DNA of 47,847 nt. It comes from Bacteroides sp. (GTDB lineage Bacteria; Bacteroidota; Bacteroidia; Bacteroidales; Bacteroidaceae). A model generated the notes under the pieces. It was not told the origin of the DNA. It was given only the letters and a program-made list of their open reading frames with translations, and ran no database searches. The DNA lies in NCBI GenBank assembly GCA_017630035.1, contig JAGBWA010000036.1, positions 1 through 47,847 of the forward strand, given 5' to 3'. Every line of letters starts with the position of its first letter. The first letter of the stretch is position 1. The position numbers were made by a program, and so were the translations under genes. Positions 4,841 to 10,887 of this stretch are shown one piece after another.

Positions 4841-6283
4841 ATGAATCAAATGACAAAAAAAACTAATTGGCGTTGGTGGATTTGCCTACTCTTGTTTGTA
4901 GCAACTACTATCAACTACATGGACCGCCAAGTACTTTCGTTGACTTGGAAAGACTACATTGCACCCGAATTTCATTGGACAGATTCCGACTATGGTACCA
5001 TTACCGGATTCTTCTCCATCTTCTATGCCGTAGCAAGTTTGTTTGCCGGCCGTTTCGTGGATTGGATGGGTACTAAGAAGGGTTACCTCTGGGCCATCTT
5101 CGTATGGTCGGTAGGTGCTTGTATGCATGCCGGATGCGGCTGGGCAACCATGCACATCGAAGGTATTGAATCTATCGAAGCATTGAAAGCACTCGAAGCC
5201 GGTTCGCAAGTGGCTCTCGCCGTAGCCACCGTTAGCGTATGGTTGTTCTTGGTTTGCCGCGCCATCTTGGCATTGGGCGAAGCCGGTAACTTCCCCGCTG
5301 CTATCAAAGTGACCGCCGAATATTTTCCGAAGAAAGACCGCGCCTATGCCACTTCGCTCTTCAACGCCGGTTCATCGGTAGGTGCGTTGGCCGCTCCCCT
5401 TTCTATTCCTATCCTTGCCGATGCTTTCGGTTGGGAAATGGCCTTCATCATTATTGGTGTATTAGGCTTTGCTTGGATGTTCTTCTGGATTTACATGTAC
5501 GAAAAGCCTCAGCAATCAAAGCATGTAAGTGCCGCCGAACTTGAATACATCCTTCAAGACGAAAAGAATAGCGCCGCCGAAGAGAAGAAAGATGTAGAGA
5601 AGAAGGAAAAGACCATTCCTTTCTTCCAATGCTTCCGCTATCGCCAAACATGGTCGTTCATCAGCGGTAAGTTCTTCACCGATGGTGTATGGTGGTTCTA
5701 TCTATTCTGGGCTCCGGCCTACTTCTCGGAATGTGGTTACTCCATGCAAACCACTACCGGTAAGATGTTGGTATTTGTACTCTACTTAATCGTAACCATT
5801 GTTTCTATTGGCGGTGGATACTTGCCTAAGTTGTTCGTTGAAAAGCGAGGCATGGAGCCATACGCAGGTCGTATGTTGGCCATGTTGATTTTCGCCTTCT
5901 TCCCCTTGTTCGCATTGTTTGCGCAACCACTTCAAGGCATCTCTGTATGGTTCCCTGCAATCATCATTGGTTTGGCAGGTGCCGGACACCAAGCATGGTC
6001 GGCCAACCTGTTCTCGACCATTGGCGATATGTTCCCAAAATCGACCATTGCCACCATTACTGGTATCGGTACTATGGCGGGCGGTATTGCATCGTTCCTT
6101 ATTAATAAAGGTGCCGGTGTATTGTTCGATTATGCAGCCGAAAGCCAAATGAGCTTTATGGGATTCGTAGGCAAGCCAGCCGGTTACTTCATTATCTTCT
6201 GTATCTGTGCCGTTGCATACCTCATTGCATGGACAGTAATGAAGACATTGGTACCGAAGCACAAACCTATCGTTTTGGATTGA
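4841..6283 (+). CDS. MFS transporter, ACS family (hexuronate-transporter-like)
   Basis: This 480-residue inner-membrane protein has about 12 hydrophobic segments and resembles ExuT/GudP-type anion:cation symporters. The N-terminal TTINYMDRQVLSLTWKDY is the ACS-family first helix with its conserved Asp-Arg. GRFVDWMGTKKG is the MFS loop 2-3 motif and RAILALGEAGNFPAAIKVTAEYFPKKDRA is the ACS signature in helices 4-5. A charged EEKKDVEKKEK stretch (about residues 247-257) is the central cytoplasmic loop. An insertion of about 25 residues (GWATMHIEGIESIEALKALEAGSQ) extends the loop near residue 105. Substrates in the family are hexuronates or aldarates; no catabolic gene lies alongside to fix the substrate. 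It has its own promoter and terminator. Confidence 0.88.
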   Translation: MNQMTKKTNWRWWICLLLFVATTINYMDRQVLSLTWKDYIAPEFHWTDSDYGTITGFFSIFYAVASLFAGRFVDWMGTKKGYLWAIFVWSVGACMHAGCGWATMHIEGIESIEALKALEAGSQVALAVATVSVWLFLVCRAILALGEAGNFPAAIKVTAEYFPKKDRAYATSLFNAGSSVGALAAPLSIPILADAFGWEMAFIIIGVLGFAWMFFWIYMYEKPQQSKHVSAAELEYILQDEKNSAAEEKKDVEKKEKTIPFFQCFRYRQTWSFISGKFFTDGVWWFYLFWAPAYFSECGYSMQTTTGKMLVFVLYLIVTIVSIGGGYLPKLFVEKRGMEPYAGRMLAMLIFAFFPLFALFAQPLQGISVWFPAIIIGLAGAGHQAWSANLFSTIGDMFPKSTIATITGIGTMAGGIASFLINKGAGVLFDYAAESQMSFMGFVGKPAGYFIIFCICAVAYLIAWTVMKTLVPKHKPIVLD

Positions 6284-6305
6284 TAAACTGCTTCATTCAT
6301 AGCAT

Positions 6306-6333
6306 AAAGCCGTGGCATTGCGTCGCGGCTTTT
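6306..6333 (+). terminator. Intrinsic terminator after the MFS gene
   Basis: A 9-bp stem (6306-6314 with 6324-6332, one G-U pair) with a 9-nt loop, ending in TTT. It lies 22 bp after the stop codon. Confidence 0.7.
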
Positions 6334-6391
6334 CTATTTATATTATACTGAATCCACCTCTACTTATATCTATCATCTCCCTCTCTTATTA

Positions 6392-6486
6392 CTTACGCCA
6401 CTTACATATATCATGTAAGCAGGCTTACATCCTATTGTAAGTACACTTACATCCTATACGTAAGTAGGCTTACATCTATATGTAAA
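6392..6486. repeat. Array of GTAAG-N4-CTTAC palindromes with about 22-bp spacing
   Basis: Three full palindromes GTAAG-N4-CTTAC lie at 6415-6428, 6437-6450 and 6460-6473. A half-site GTAAA follows at 6482-6486, and isolated CTTAC half-sites precede at 6392-6396 and 6401-6405. The left ends are 22, 23 and 22 bp apart, about two helical turns, so a dimeric DNA-binding protein would meet all copies on one face. The array lies between the MFS terminator and the promoter of the small RNA at 6602. It could be an operator cluster or a spreading palindromic repeat. Confidence 0.75.
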
Positions 6487-6563
6487 TGAACAAGAGAATA
6501 GTTTGAAGAGCGGACAAACACTGATATGCTTTACAACAGTATAGAAAGAAATATTCGTAAAAG

Positions 6564-6596
6564 TTTGCTTTATATAATTTTAATTTCCTATTTTTG
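6564..6596 (+). promoter_or_regulatory. Promoter for the structured small RNA
   Basis: TTTG at 6564-6567, a 21-bp spacer, then TATTTTTG at 6589-6596, matching TTTG/TAnnTTTG. It predicts a start near 6603, just before the first helix of the folded RNA. Confidence 0.65.
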
Positions 6597-6601
6597 TGGG
6601 T

Positions 6602-6826
6602 GAAAGCTACCGAAGCGTTGGTGGCCGACATTTTATGGAAAAATATTAGCGTTTGCTATTATTCTATATCGTCGTTGGAACTTAGGAACTTTCAAGAATA
6701 TACGATAAGAATAAGATGGCAGATGCCTACGTATAGCGTAGGTGCATCTTGTTTCTTTGTATATTCAGGTATCCTAAGACCTCAACGACGAAGGACATAA
6801 AAGATGACACCTGCGTTTCTTTTTGT
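6602..6826 (+). ncRNA. Structured small RNA, rod-like (6S-RNA-like candidate)
   Basis: Seven nested helices can be read by eye: 6612-6623/6808-6819, 6629-6637/6796-6806, 6669-6677/6783-6791, 6681-6687/6772-6778, 6696-6703/6759-6766, 6713-6718/6745-6750 and 6726-6731/6737-6742. Together they make one long rod about 220 nt long. It has a matched promoter upstream and a T-rich tract (6816-6825) just after the closing stem. One large asymmetric bubble (6638-6668, with a small TAGC-GTTT-GCTA hairpin) sits between the closing stems and the terminal arm. A closing stem, central bubble and long arm are the architecture of 6S RNA, which binds RNA polymerase. The match is structural only, so 6S is a hypothesis; the existence of a folded RNA is better supported. 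An ORF in this stretch is not credible. Confidence 0.6.
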
Positions 6827-6905
6827 CTTGGGGCTTAGGGTACAGCACATTCTTTTATCTTTCCAGTTTAAGACGATATTTATTAACCCTTAAAACTTTA
6901 AGCAT

Positions 6906-9900
6906 ATGAGAAAAACATTATCTTTTATCGCTTTAGTGATGATGCTACTATTGGTTGGATGTAGCAAAGAGTATGACGACTCCGCATTGATGGGGCGTGT
7001 TGACAATCTTGAAAACCGTGTTCTTAAACTTGAACAGCTTTGTAACCAAATGAACAGCAACATTTCATCCTTGCAAACCATTGTTACGGCTTTGCAGAAG
7101 AATGACTATGTAACCGGCGTAACGCCTGTTACAGAAGATGGTGTGACTATTGGTTATACCATTACATTTGCCAAAGCAGAAGCTATTACCATCTATCATG
7201 GTAAGAATGGTGTTGATGGGAAAGATGGTGCAGATGGTTACACACCGGTGATTGGTGTAAAGCAAGATAGCGACGGAATCTATTATTGGATTTTGGATGG
7301 TGAATGGTTGACCGATGAGAAGGGAAATAAAATCAAAGCTGTTGGCATTGACGGCAAAGATGGTGTTGATGGGAAAGACGGAGAGGATGGTGTTGATGGC
7401 AAGGATGGCGTTGATGGGAAAGACGGGATTACGCCAATACTGAAGATTGAAAACGATTATTGGTATATCTCATACGATAATGGTGTTACTTGGACGCAAC
7501 TCGGCAAAGCAATCGGCGAGGATGGTAAGGACGGAACTGACGGAAAGGATGGTGAAAATGGAGATTCTTTCTTCAGCGAAGTAACAGAAGACGAAGAGAA
7601 TGTTTATTTTACTTTGGTCGACGGAACAATCATCACCCTTCCGAAAGCTCAACCTTTAAGCATTGCTTTCAATGATGCTGATTTAGTAGTGATGTCGCCC
7701 AACTCCACTCGAAGCATTGGTTACACGGTAACAACATCAGTAGAAACAGCTACTGTAGAAGTCGTTTCGTCTGCTGATATAAAAGCAAAGGTGGTTGCTG
7801 ACGATGAAAGCGGCTTGACTGGCAAAATAGAAATAAAGACCGGTGCAACAATCGACGAATATAGCAAGCTGATTGTTCTTGTATCCGATGGCTATAAGGT
7901 TATTATGCATAGCATCACCTTCGAGGAAGCAGGTTTACAAGTGGAAGAGGATGCCGCACAGAAGAATGCAACAGCCGAAGGTGGCGAAATGACCTTGGAA
8001 TTCTTGTCGAATGTGGCATGCGAAGCAGTGATTCCCGAAGAAGCAAAGAGTTGGATTTCGGTAGTACCCGCAACTCGTGCAATGGAGAAACAGACAATCA
8101 CGCTACTACTTGAGCCGAACACGGGCTACTATCGTAGCGCAACAGTAACCGTTCAATCTCCCGATGGAACATTAAAGTTGGAATATAAAGTAGAACAAGA
8201 AGGAAATTTGGGCATACAGATTGACCCTACGGCTATACCGGATAATGAGATTTGGTATAAAACAACTGACGGACAAACAATATCTTTAGCTTCAGATGCC
8301 AATGACTGGCCATTTAATGCAAATATTATATCCAATGAATATAAAAATGGGAAAGGTTTAATTAAATTTGATGCTCCTGTTACTAAAATAGGCAAACAGT
8401 CTTTTGCAGATAAGACAAATCTGGCATCAATATACTTGCCTAAAACGATAAACAGAATAGGATTGTATGCTTTTTGGAATTGTAGCAATCTAGAAGAAGT
8501 GTTTATAAATAGTACTAATTTATTAATCGAAGAAGAGTCTGATATAAGTTCTGCAAATAACCCTTTTACGCACTGCTCGAAATTATCAAAGTTTTTTGGT
8601 CCATTATCAAGTGACGATGGAAGATGTTTGATTATTGACAATGCAATTCATAGTTTTGCGCCCTATGGAATAACTGAATATAGTATACCACAAGGTGTAA
8701 AACAAATCCGAGGCAATGCTTTTGCATACAATACTTTAAACACAATAACTATCAGCGAAGGCGTTGAATATGTCGGTTTTAAAGCCTTTATGGGATATAG
8801 CGACAAGGATGATAATCTTGAATATGTGTACTTGCCAAGTACATTAATTAACATTGAAGGCTATCCATTTTTGAATGCTTCTGAGAATATTAAAGCTTTT
8901 AGGGGTGATTGCAATTATATATCTGACGATGGATATGGTCTTATCGTTGATGACTATAGAGGATTAGGGAAACGTTTTATGATAAGTTTTGCTTCTGGTG
9001 CAGGACTAACTTCATATGCTATTCCTAACGATGTAGAAGGCATTGAATCTTACTGTTTTTACAATGCTGAAACATTAAAAGAAATTACATTCCCCCAATC
9101 ATTAGTAGATATAGCATCACAAGAATCCTTTACCGGAAGCTATAATATAGAAAAAATCTATGGAGAAAATGTTTTGGAAGATAATCGTAGTTTGGTTATT
9201 GATGGAACATTAATATATGTAGCTCCAAAAAGTCTAACAAATTACACAACTCCAAAAGGTGTGACAAAACTAAGTTATGGAGTTCTCGCTCAAAAGCCAG
9301 AATTGGAAAATGTTGTTATTTCTGATGATGTACTAACCGTTGGAGACGCAATAAGTTGCCGACCATATGAAATTCCTTTGGGATATATTTTATGGAACAA
9401 CCCCAATCTCAAGACTATAACTATTTCTGCAAATATGAGAATAATAGGAGTTGATCCATTTGACGGATGTGAAAAATTAGAAACTGTATATTTGCGTGCC
9501 CCTATTCCTCCTGTAATTGGTCATAATTCTCCCGATGAAAAACCATCATTATTCCCTCATTTAACAATTTATGTTCCCAAACAATCATTAGAAGCATATA
9601 TGGGTTCACCTGATTGGACTCCATATAGAGGATATATTAAAGGGTATAATTACACAGATTTACCTGAAATAGACACATACATTTCCTCCGACTACTCTAA
9701 CGATGGTAAAGTGATAACCCTACAAACTGCCACAAAGGGTAATGGAATTGATATAGTGCTAATGGGCGATGCCTATTCCGATCGTCAAATTGCTGATGGT
9801 ACATACAAAGCTGATATGGAAAATCTATACGAAAACCTCTTTACTGAAGAACCGTATAAATCGTTTAAGGAACTCTTTAATGTACATTATATAAATGTAG

Positions 9901-10694
9901 TATCTGCAACAGAGGGATATGAATATGGAAATACCGCTTTGGACGGATTCTTTGGCGACGGTACTTATGTAGGCGGAAACGATGATGCAGCCTTTGACTA
10001 TGCACTAAAAGCAATAAGCGAAGAAAGAATGGACGAAGCGTTGTTAATCGTTGCCATGAACTCGGACAATTATGCCGGAACTTGCTATATGTATTATCCT
10101 ACAGATGCAACAAGTACATATGGTAGCGGTCCTTCGGTTGCATATTTCCCCAAAGGTGGTGATGCCGAAACCTTTGCACAATTGCTTCATCACGAAGCAT
10201 GCGGACATGGCTTTGCAAAACTCGCGGACGAATATGCTTACGAGGATATGGGTGAAGTGCCATCTGACTATGTAACCCAAACAAAAGAACAACAAGCCAA
10301 TTGGGGGTGGTGGAAGAATGTTGACTTCACAGACAACTTGAACACAATCCGTTGGAGCAAGTTCATTAATGATACCCGTTATGCAAACGATGGTCTTGGC
10401 GCATACGAAGGTGGCTTGACCTATTGGACGGGTGTTTGGCGACCAACCGAAAACAGCATTATGCGTTACAACACGGGTGGCTTCAATGCACCAAGTCGCG
10501 AAGCTATTTATTATCGCATTCATAAGTTAGCTTATGGCGACAGTTGGGAATATGATTACGAAGATTTCGTGGAATACGATGCCATCAATCGTAAAGCGGC
10601 TGCTTCTGCCCGTACTAAATCGTATAAGCCATCGAACTACAAACCTACACATCCACCTGTAATAATGAATAAATCTTGGAAAGATGCAGAATAG
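6906..10694 (+). CDS. Mosaic surface lipoprotein: coiled coil, collagen-like, BACON, BspA-like repeats, M64 peptidase
   Basis: A 1262-residue lipoprotein; the signal peptide ends LLLVGC and CSKEYDD after the Cys has the acidic residues expected of a Bacteroidetes surface-export signal. In order: a heptad coiled coil (about 28-65) in a DUF4988-like region; collagen-like GKDG repeats at about 100-112, 148-175 and 205-218; a BACON domain (about 354-432); BspA-type leucine-rich repeats (about 460-900; units such as LEEVFINSTN, LKEITFPQSL and LKTITISANM); and an M64 (IgA-peptidase-like) domain from about 945. The zinc motif is HEACGHGFAKLADEY starting at H1096. Only the LRR stretch (about 8230-9650) is clearly AT-richer, which suggests domain shuffling. 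BACON and LRR domains suggest binding to mucin or host protein, with cleavage by the M64 domain. The small lipoprotein downstream overlaps it and shares its tail motif. Confidence 0.85.
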   Translation: MRKTLSFIALVMMLLLVGCSKEYDDSALMGRVDNLENRVLKLEQLCNQMNSNISSLQTIVTALQKNDYVTGVTPVTEDGVTIGYTITFAKAEAITIYHGKNGVDGKDGADGYTPVIGVKQDSDGIYYWILDGEWLTDEKGNKIKAVGIDGKDGVDGKDGEDGVDGKDGVDGKDGITPILKIENDYWYISYDNGVTWTQLGKAIGEDGKDGTDGKDGENGDSFFSEVTEDEENVYFTLVDGTIITLPKAQPLSIAFNDADLVVMSPNSTRSIGYTVTTSVETATVEVVSSADIKAKVVADDESGLTGKIEIKTGATIDEYSKLIVLVSDGYKVIMHSITFEEAGLQVEEDAAQKNATAEGGEMTLEFLSNVACEAVIPEEAKSWISVVPATRAMEKQTITLLLEPNTGYYRSATVTVQSPDGTLKLEYKVEQEGNLGIQIDPTAIPDNEIWYKTTDGQTISLASDANDWPFNANIISNEYKNGKGLIKFDAPVTKIGKQSFADKTNLASIYLPKTINRIGLYAFWNCSNLEEVFINSTNLLIEEESDISSANNPFTHCSKLSKFFGPLSSDDGRCLIIDNAIHSFAPYGITEYSIPQGVKQIRGNAFAYNTLNTITISEGVEYVGFKAFMGYSDKDDNLEYVYLPSTLINIEGYPFLNASENIKAFRGDCNYISDDGYGLIVDDYRGLGKRFMISFASGAGLTSYAIPNDVEGIESYCFYNAETLKEITFPQSLVDIASQESFTGSYNIEKIYGENVLEDNRSLVIDGTLIYVAPKSLTNYTTPKGVTKLSYGVLAQKPELENVVISDDVLTVGDAISCRPYEIPLGYILWNNPNLKTITISANMRIIGVDPFDGCEKLETVYLRAPIPPVIGHNSPDEKPSLFPHLTIYVPKQSLEAYMGSPDWTPYRGYIKGYNYTDLPEIDTYISSDYSNDGKVITLQTATKGNGIDIVLMGDAYSDRQIADGTYKADMENLYENLFTEEPYKSFKELFNVHYINVVSATEGYEYGNTALDGFFGDGTYVGGNDDAAFDYALKAISEERMDEALLIVAMNSDNYAGTCYMYYPTDATSTYGSGPSVAYFPKGGDAETFAQLLHHEACGHGFAKLADEYAYEDMGEVPSDYVTQTKEQQANWGWWKNVDFTDNLNTIRWSKFINDTRYANDGLGAYEGGLTYWTGVWRPTENSIMRYNTGGFNAPSREAIYYRIHKLAYGDSWEYDYEDFVEYDAINRKAAASARTKSYKPSNYKPTHPPVIMNKSWKDAE

Positions 10695-10887
10695 AAACAA
10701 ACATTTCATAATCATTCCGACGGCAGCTATCATGCTGTCGTTGGTAATGCTCTGTTCGTGCAGGACAACAAAGAACGAGCCAACTAAACCCATAGAACAA
10801 ACAGAACCTACCGATACGGTAAAAGAGTTTGTTCCCACTCATCCACCCGTTGTAGTTCCACACAAATGGAACGAAAAGGAACAATAA
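10684..10887 (+). CDS. Small lipoprotein sharing the tail motif of the M64 protein
   Basis: A 67-residue protein with a hydrophobic signal and lipobox LCSC (Cys about 26). It is then short, polar and Pro/Thr-rich. Its start overlaps the end of the M64 gene by 11 bp, so the two are likely co-translated. It ends PTHPPVVVPHKWNEKEQ, while the upstream protein ends PTHPPVIMNKSWKDAE. The shared THPPV-x4-W motif is unlikely to be chance and suggests a common partner or a duplicated C-terminus. No known family is recognised. Confidence 0.6.
   Translation: MQNRNKHFIIIPTAAIMLSLVMLCSCRTTKNEPTKPIEQTEPTDTVKEFVPTHPPVVVPHKWNEKEQ

Follow-up and report, generated by a model that had tools for sequence, protein, structure and literature searches.

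This locus raises the question of what a strongly folding segment of about 220 nt is, standing upstream of a lipoprotein gene in Bacteroides sp., within the window (the whole 47,847-nt stretch of DNA that was analysed). The original prediction had taken it for a structured RNA in an otherwise empty gap, 6S-like by its shape, with a leader of the M64 lipoprotein as an alternative reading. RNAfold gave −77.8 kcal/mol for positions 6602-6826 (+), against −47.3 (sd 4.3) for shuffled sequences (z −7.15), and with none of 200 shuffles as good the pairing does go beyond chance. The reverse strand also folds strongly (z −6.31), as is expected of a long inverted repeat. The nested helices and a terminal hairpin near 6726-6742 were recovered, and the predicted promoter boxes (TTTG at 6564-6567, TAnnTTTG at 6589-6596) and the T-rich tract after the structure (6816-6824) are present. 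Two parts of the rod read differently from the prediction. The outermost closing stem (6612-6623 with 6808-6819) can pair, but it is the least supported part, with z 2.7 over 106 copies in the own-versus-crossed test described below; it was too weak to be kept as a P1 helix of the family, and the window copy and the six copies nearest to it, among them the sister copy in the same genome, can form a local 5′ hairpin in its place. The proposed one-sided bubble (6638-6668) includes stretches that rank among the best conserved in the seven nearest copies, and also one strand of a covarying pseudoknot (PK1). Coordinates are collected in Table 1. Just 5′ of the promoter, at 6399-6488, lie two 42-nt direct repeats (74% alike) of TTACAT/ATGTAA palindromes, possibly an operator or the end of a transporter transcript.

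Table 1. Positions in the window of the leader RNA, its pairing strands and the gene behind it, with the basis of each assignment.
Feature	Position	Strand	Basis
Promoter boxes TTTG / TAnnTTTG, Bacteroidota-type	6564-6596	+	Sequence; transcription start expected near 6602
Structured leader RNA, expected start to end of T-tract	6602-6824	+	Fold z −7.15; R1 match 6630-6792 and R2 match 6648-6823 (window copy included in building both models)
5′ hairpin GCUACC..GGUGGC, alternative to closing stem	6606-6625	+	Local hairpin, window and six nearest copies
Small conserved hairpin UAGC-GUUU-GCUA	6647-6658	+	Conserved in A8; own-versus-crossed z 6.2
PK1 5′ strand UUAUUCU, partner 6708-6714	6659-6665	+	89.7% of cells paired; 7/7 pairs changed on both sides, 46 copies
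P2 5′ strand, partner 6783-6790	6670-6677	+	Own-versus-crossed z 42.5
P3 5′ strand CUUAGGA, partner 6772-6778, flanks GAA(A)..UUUC	6681-6687	+	99.7% paired
P4 5′ strand, partner 6759-6766	6696-6703	+	Own-versus-crossed z 50.2
PK1 3′ strand AGAAUAA	6708-6714	+	Covariation, 46 copies
Apical hairpin GAUGCCUACG / CGUAGGUGC	6722-6745	+	98.1% of cells paired, 46 copies
Exchange strand: 3′ arm of apical hairpin, also complementary to 6808-6815 (PK2)	6737-6744	+	PK2 at −7 kcal/mol or better in 105/106; covaries
P4 3′ strand	6759-6766	+	Own-versus-crossed test
P3 3′ strand UCCUAAG, flanks GGU..ACC; 6769-6778 also complementary to 6834-6843	6772-6778	+	Covariation, pairing test
P2 3′ strand	6783-6790	+	Own-versus-crossed test, covariation
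PK2 3′ strand CACCUGCG, immediately 5′ of T-tract	6808-6815	+	Covariation
T-tract TTTCTTTTT, candidate termination point	6816-6824	+	At least 6 T in 9 nt after PK2 strand, 94/106 copies
Downstream strand CTTAGGGTAC, alternative partner of 6769-6778	6834-6843	+	Pairing test
Gene behind leader: lipoprotein with DUF4988, BACON, LRR_5 and Peptidase M64 domains	6906-10694	+	Domain matches

Relatives of the segment were sought by DNA search in 198 related genomes, of which 12, the own genome counted, gave matches. The own genome (78% complete) holds two copies of the RNA, the sister copy having 86% identity; matches elsewhere are near full-length in five genomes of the genus and short in a further six, and unrelated genes adjoin the six copies whose flanks were inspected. 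One of the short matches (L095, around 9581-9619, genome G106) covers the first hairpin region of the RNA only and may be a leader remnant. Seven copies yielded a consensus of 55 pairs, 16 of them changed on both sides, and from this a model (R1) was built, which had matches at E ≤ 0.01 in 62 of the 158 genomes from the genus and in 70 of 393 from the order. From 149 listed R1 matches the 145 on the same strand were kept (four reverse-strand matches removed), corresponding to 143 distinct places. Alignment A8 consists of 106 diverse copies from 118 eligible non-redundant ones, 12 having been omitted when listing; alignment A9 retains 46 of 60 chosen copies, 14 divergent or odd rows having been dropped by eye. 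A second model, R2, built from 46 copies including the window, spans 168 positions and at E ≤ 0.001 matched 139 of the 158 genomes of the genus, at up to 16 places per genome (at most 17 candidates were scored). At E ≤ 1e-6 it matched 74 of 198 genomes of the order; 20 of 198 genomes of the phylum also gave matches, and the genomes of loci L001 and L062 hold 16 and 17 places. No match was obtained among 149 genomes in the phylum of an Erysipelotrichaceae record, the twenty listed being mostly small genomes. The window RNA is thus one copy of a conserved, Bacteroidota-wide structured RNA family, a covarying RNA found at no fewer than ten places in 20 of 158 genomes of the genus (counts per genome being lower bounds) and yet without an Rfam 15 match in the loci scanned.

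Compensatory changes in relatives, proposed in the original prediction as a check on the fold, were abundant. Of the 20 pairs predicted by RNAalifold from A8, 18 are changed on both sides; one example is C-G in 45 copies, U-A in 41 and G-C in 16, and is broken in 1 of 106. In A9 the nested core is 94.9% paired against 72.1% after shuffling, with 198 double-change cells against 48.7, values that are flattered by the removal of 14 divergent copies by eye; sliding the partner by one to three columns lowers the pairing to 33-45%. The P3 helix CUUAGGA/UCCUAAG is nearly always paired in the same alignment (99.7%), all seven pairs being changed on both sides. Two further alignments take in all R2 matches listed but are fitted to the model: A10 (60 copies, 58 distinct), with 97.7% of the core paired against 68.7% shuffled, and A13 (47 copies, 45 distinct, from M64/DUF4988 loci), with 97.7% against 66.5%.

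The pairings were also examined by setting each copy's strand against its own partner or against the strands of other copies (own versus crossed; 106 copies). This gave z values of 31.0 for P3, 12.4 for the apical hairpin, 13.7 for PK2 and 10.2 for PK1, in addition to those of P2 and P4 in Table 1, whereas two control pairings gave 2.1 and −1.3. GU cells far exceed AC cells (78:16, 78:3, 50:1, 56:3 and 28:5), which identifies the + strand as the folded RNA. Next to P3, the flanks GGY/RCC covary (z 8.4) and GAAA/UUUC do so weakly (z 3.1), so a kissing-loop form may stand beside the nested P3. As in a riboswitch, a conserved folded core with covariation is present, and we model it as P2, P3, P4 and the apical hairpin, tied by the pseudoknot PK1.

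The position of the copies relative to genes is that of a 5′ leader. In a first set of 121 distinct copies, 104 are followed by a gene on their own strand and 7 by one on the opposite strand, no next gene being found for 10, with a median gap of 88 nt from the R1 match; in a second set the counts were 53 same-strand and 4 opposite (one copy without a gene and two duplicates being set aside), with a median gap of 75 nt from the R2 match. The gap was under 100 nt for 34 of these 53 and above 100 nt, up to 924 nt, for 19; the gene calls in both sets are our own ORF scans and not annotation. In the 140 nt 5′ of the conserved hairpin, 75 of 105 copies have a TAnnTTTG box, compared with 43 of 621 control blocks, and 47 of the 75 boxes end at a distance of 42-61 nt from the hairpin. 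Between T-tract and start codon only 3 of 96 copies have such a box. Homologues of the window M64/DUF4988 lipoprotein (57 whose start was matched and which have 260 nt or more of upstream sequence, many matching the N-terminal part only) were examined in the same way. BLAST with the window RNA gave no convincing match at these loci; R2 later placed the RNA upstream of 44 of the 57, leaving 13 with none. Of the 44 leaders, 39 lie 29-94 nt before the gene and five 360-642 nt, and all 47 R2 matches at M64/DUF4988 loci are on the strand of the gene. Hence the idea of a leader of this lipoprotein, raised as an alternative in the original prediction, holds, and the gap is not an empty one, the RNA lying most likely within the transcript of the gene that starts at 6906. 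Judged by position only, the riboswitch feature of a 5′ mRNA leader is likewise present. Altogether, the RNA is very probably a structured mRNA leader. Mini-ORFs of the form ATG-NNN-stop are in excess over the 70 nt leading up to the conserved hairpin, occurring in 23 of 105 copies where shuffling gives 10.2 (L131, L142, L145, L150 and L152 are among the carriers); this excess is suggestive only.

Behind the leader stand unrelated surface, restriction and other accessory genes of Bacteroidota. Among 124 downstream proteins of the first set, DNA methyltransferase Pfam families were found in 14, 10 and 9 (overlapping), BspA repeats in 7, acyltransferases in 4 and T9SS tails in 4, and the PADLOC mad2 methyltransferase model matched 21. 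The upstream neighbours (124 of 159, a control that mixes loci of both sets) gave no methyltransferase among the 25 of 144 Pfam families and 25 of 97 PADLOC models listed. In the second set (53 proteins) the TonB plug (7), carboxypeptidase-regulatory-like domain (7), DUF3575 (4) and beta-barrels (3) lead. Restriction-modification genes were considered as a general theme and abandoned, no methyltransferase being found among the 25 of 34 Pfam families listed for the second set. As the gene sets differ, no one theme indicates a signal, and the genes downstream of the leader in both sets gave no hint of a ligand. By a simple signal-peptide rule of our own, 88 of 146 downstream proteins qualified against 39 of 159 upstream ones. 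In the distant members L246 and L249 the gene behind the RNA resembles a sigma-70 factor; 2 of the 53 second-set proteins match sigma-70 region families, their assignment to these two loci being by sequence.

The 3′ part of the leader offers two exclusive pairings. Two partners are available to CGUAGGUG (window 6737-6744), which reads GCGUGGGC in many members: the 5′ arm of the apical hairpin and the PK2 3′ strand (6808-6815), itself GUCCCACGC in many members. The two are predicted to be of similar mean strength (PK2 −13.1, apical hairpin −14.2 kcal/mol) and reach −7 kcal/mol or better in 105 and 104 of 106 copies. PK2 has 28 double-change cells against 7.9 shuffled; since it shares a strand with the apical hairpin, part of the covariation of either may be carried over from the other. 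Of the 106 copies, 94 have a T-rich stretch (at least 6 T in 9 nt) right after the PK2 strand and 12 have none as counted; among control 9-mers, 214 of 5300 are as T-rich. Furthermore, in part of the members a strand 3′ of the T-tract covaries with the 3′ strand of PK2 (P5; UCAGCUCC/GGAGCUGA in L001, UCAACUCC/GGAGUUGA in L062). P5 gave z values of 2.4, 5.2 and 7.3 in three sets and, separately, 7.3 in A8, its pairing score reached 15 in 15 of 46, 30 of 60 and 29 of 47 copies, and it is clear in part of the members only. In the window's form of this exchange, 6769-6778 can give up P3 for a pairing with 6834-6843.

Riboswitches have mutually exclusive pairings at their expression platform, and pairing potential and covariation support such pairings here; intrinsic terminators have a G+C-rich stem directly before a U-run, an arrangement that the PK2 strand and the T-tract share. 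An intrinsic terminator also has a short loop, whereas 63 nt (6745-6807) separate the PK2 strands in the window. With its 5′ position, conserved core, pseudoknot and exclusive pairings before a T-tract, the leader resembles orphan riboswitch candidates and attenuators, and it differs from them in standing, in several to many copies per genome, before unrelated genes, in having no ligand assigned and in this long loop.

The following mechanism would be consistent with these features. Transcription would begin behind the TTTG / TAnnTTTG boxes, near 6602. If PK2 formed beside the U-run, RNA polymerase would stop and only a short RNA of about 200 nt would be made; if the apical hairpin stayed closed, transcription would continue into the gene, and in the read-through state of part of the members the freed strand would pair with the downstream strand (P5). 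The balance would depend on a putative signal (metabolite, protein or RNA) that the P2/P3/P4 core reads, and the switch would control surface lipoproteins, TonB-dependent receptors, restriction-modification and other accessory genes. That the modelled leader is a two-state attenuator seems to us evenly poised; alternatively, PK2 could serve as a tertiary contact or affect translation. For the reading as a whole, a Bacteroidota-wide leader family working as an attenuator-like switch, we are slightly in favour.

A constitutive leader, which does not switch but whose stable fold shields the mRNA 5′ end or sets translation, and in which the two exclusive pairings are a trace of folding during transcription, would accord with the firm leader position and with the lack of a common function among the genes behind. 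We regard it as unlikely, as two equal exclusive pairings kept beside a T-tract go beyond the needs of a stabiliser.

The same T-tract, the many copies per genome and the shared unit seen in several locus pairs, which runs from near the transcription start to the T-tract, would also suit a separate small RNA that ends there and acts in trans, with the gene behind as a mere neighbour. The strong same-strand bias and short gaps, the near lack of promoter boxes between RNA and gene and the retention of the RNA before most M64/DUF4988 homologues speak against this, and we give it a low probability. The leader does share with the FopS and GibS sRNA families that it is a multicopy Bacteroides RNA family with sigma-ABfr promoters (parts of PMC11697453). 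FopS sRNAs, as described in parts of the same article, are trans-acting and about 65-70 nt long, unlike the leader of about 220 nt that heads genes and for which R2 alone spans 168 positions; the two are told apart here by that description.

The attenuator-like leader is also found with exchanged neighbours. Among 776 locus pairs that share the RNA by BLAST, 702 have nothing but the RNA in common; the upstream side is shared as well in 28, the gene behind in 34 and both in 8, and 4 are the same locus; the junctions displayed lie near the edges of the RNA. L281 and L297 have 1174 nt of upstream sequence and RNA that are identical, and are unrelated directly after GTTCCACGCTT. L114, L116 and L117 have the upstream gene and RNA in common with L119, the identity stopping in the T-tract, and differ in the gene behind. 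At the 5′ side, the similarity of L277 and L278 starts just behind the promoter box, and that of L224 and L227 includes it. Between the window copy and its sister, the shared stretch (417 nt, 6514-6920, 79.6%) begins ahead of the promoter and reaches the start codon. By contrast, L001, whose gene is the closest homologue (76% protein identity) of the window gene, has a leader so diverged that R2 alone found it (34.9 bits).

Similar DNA is present on mobile elements. An exact-pattern scan of viral contigs and BLAST of phages and plasmids with the window copy gave none; BLAST with a copy from another genome of the genus gave three phage-labelled records (78%, 29% and 15% of the query) and seven plasmid-collection records (52-100% of the query). 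Such DNA stands before blaMUN-1 on pBUN1 of B. uniformis and, in a plasmid record, before a DUF4433 gene in P. distasonis. The leader-like DNA lies 3′ of a toprim-domain protein in both L296 (2501-3655, pBUN1) and L297 (2501-3966), and also 3′ of a MobV relaxase in the former and of a hypothetical protein in the latter; other genes stand behind it in each case.

Exchange at the edges and the presence on plasmids and phage-labelled contigs would be expected of a DNA recombination site, integron-like or other, whose inverted repeats had been mistaken for RNA. An integron-like site, however, is a structure of single-stranded DNA and is not known to prefer G-U over A-C, and the GU cells counted above strongly exceed the AC cells on the + strand; moreover, promoter box and T-tract give the element a direction. 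Recombination or conversion between RNA copies explains the edge swaps, would produce the same edges and needs no special enzyme. A recombination site is therefore very improbable.

Rfam families did not account for the leader in the loci scanned. Scanned with Rfam 15 at gathering scores, the window had no match apart from a tRNA, and 40 further loci no family apart from two tRNAs. A loose scan of 6280-6910 returned ten matches, all far below gathering scores and mostly eukaryotic microRNAs, and two further loose scans one match, again far below. Among structured RNAs of Bacteroidales found by comparison, Bacteroidales-1 (RF01693) and Bacteroides-1 (RF01694) carry Rfam numbers in a table of PMC2864571, and Bacteroides-2 is listed there without one; the RF01693 and RF01694 models had no match in the loci scanned. 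No description of this RNA family was recognised in the literature covered, most subscription papers and preprints, which may hold one, lying outside that scope.

The rod of about 200 nt, the bubble and the promoter-like boxes are what the leader shares with 6S RNA (RF00013) and 6S-Flavo (RF01685). 6S RNA is a lone gene outside mRNAs; it binds RNA polymerase and templates product RNAs. The RF00013 model matched none of five genomes searched and 5 of 14 control genomes; RF01685 matched neither the one genome searched nor any control genome. That this is the 6S RNA of the organism can practically be dismissed, for although rod shape, internal bubble and T-tract recall it, the window has no Rfam 6S match, there are up to 16 matches per genome of the genus, the copies head genes as mRNA leaders and not as lone genes (104 of 111 and 53 of 57 are followed by a same-strand gene), and a separate 6S RNA of B. 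thetaiotaomicron is described in its own right in part of PMC7366714.

If the attenuator-like leader is indeed a switch, restriction systems, nutrient receptors and surface proteins would come under one common layer of control in a phylum that is prominent in the gut, and the nature of the signal could be tested directly. The edge swaps suggest how accessory genes could be inserted behind a leader that is already in place. Tentatively, one may go further and picture a single phylum-wide leader switch with a single signal and rotating surface, defence and resistance genes, the RNA acting as a homology anchor for swapping in newly arrived genes and putting foreign genes under host control at once; this remains doubtful, though conceivable. 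At the far end of the window gene, within 10640-10887, the M64 lipoprotein (PTHPPVIMNKSW) and a small lipoprotein-like ORF that overlaps its end (PTHPPVVVPHKW) have a C-terminal motif in common.
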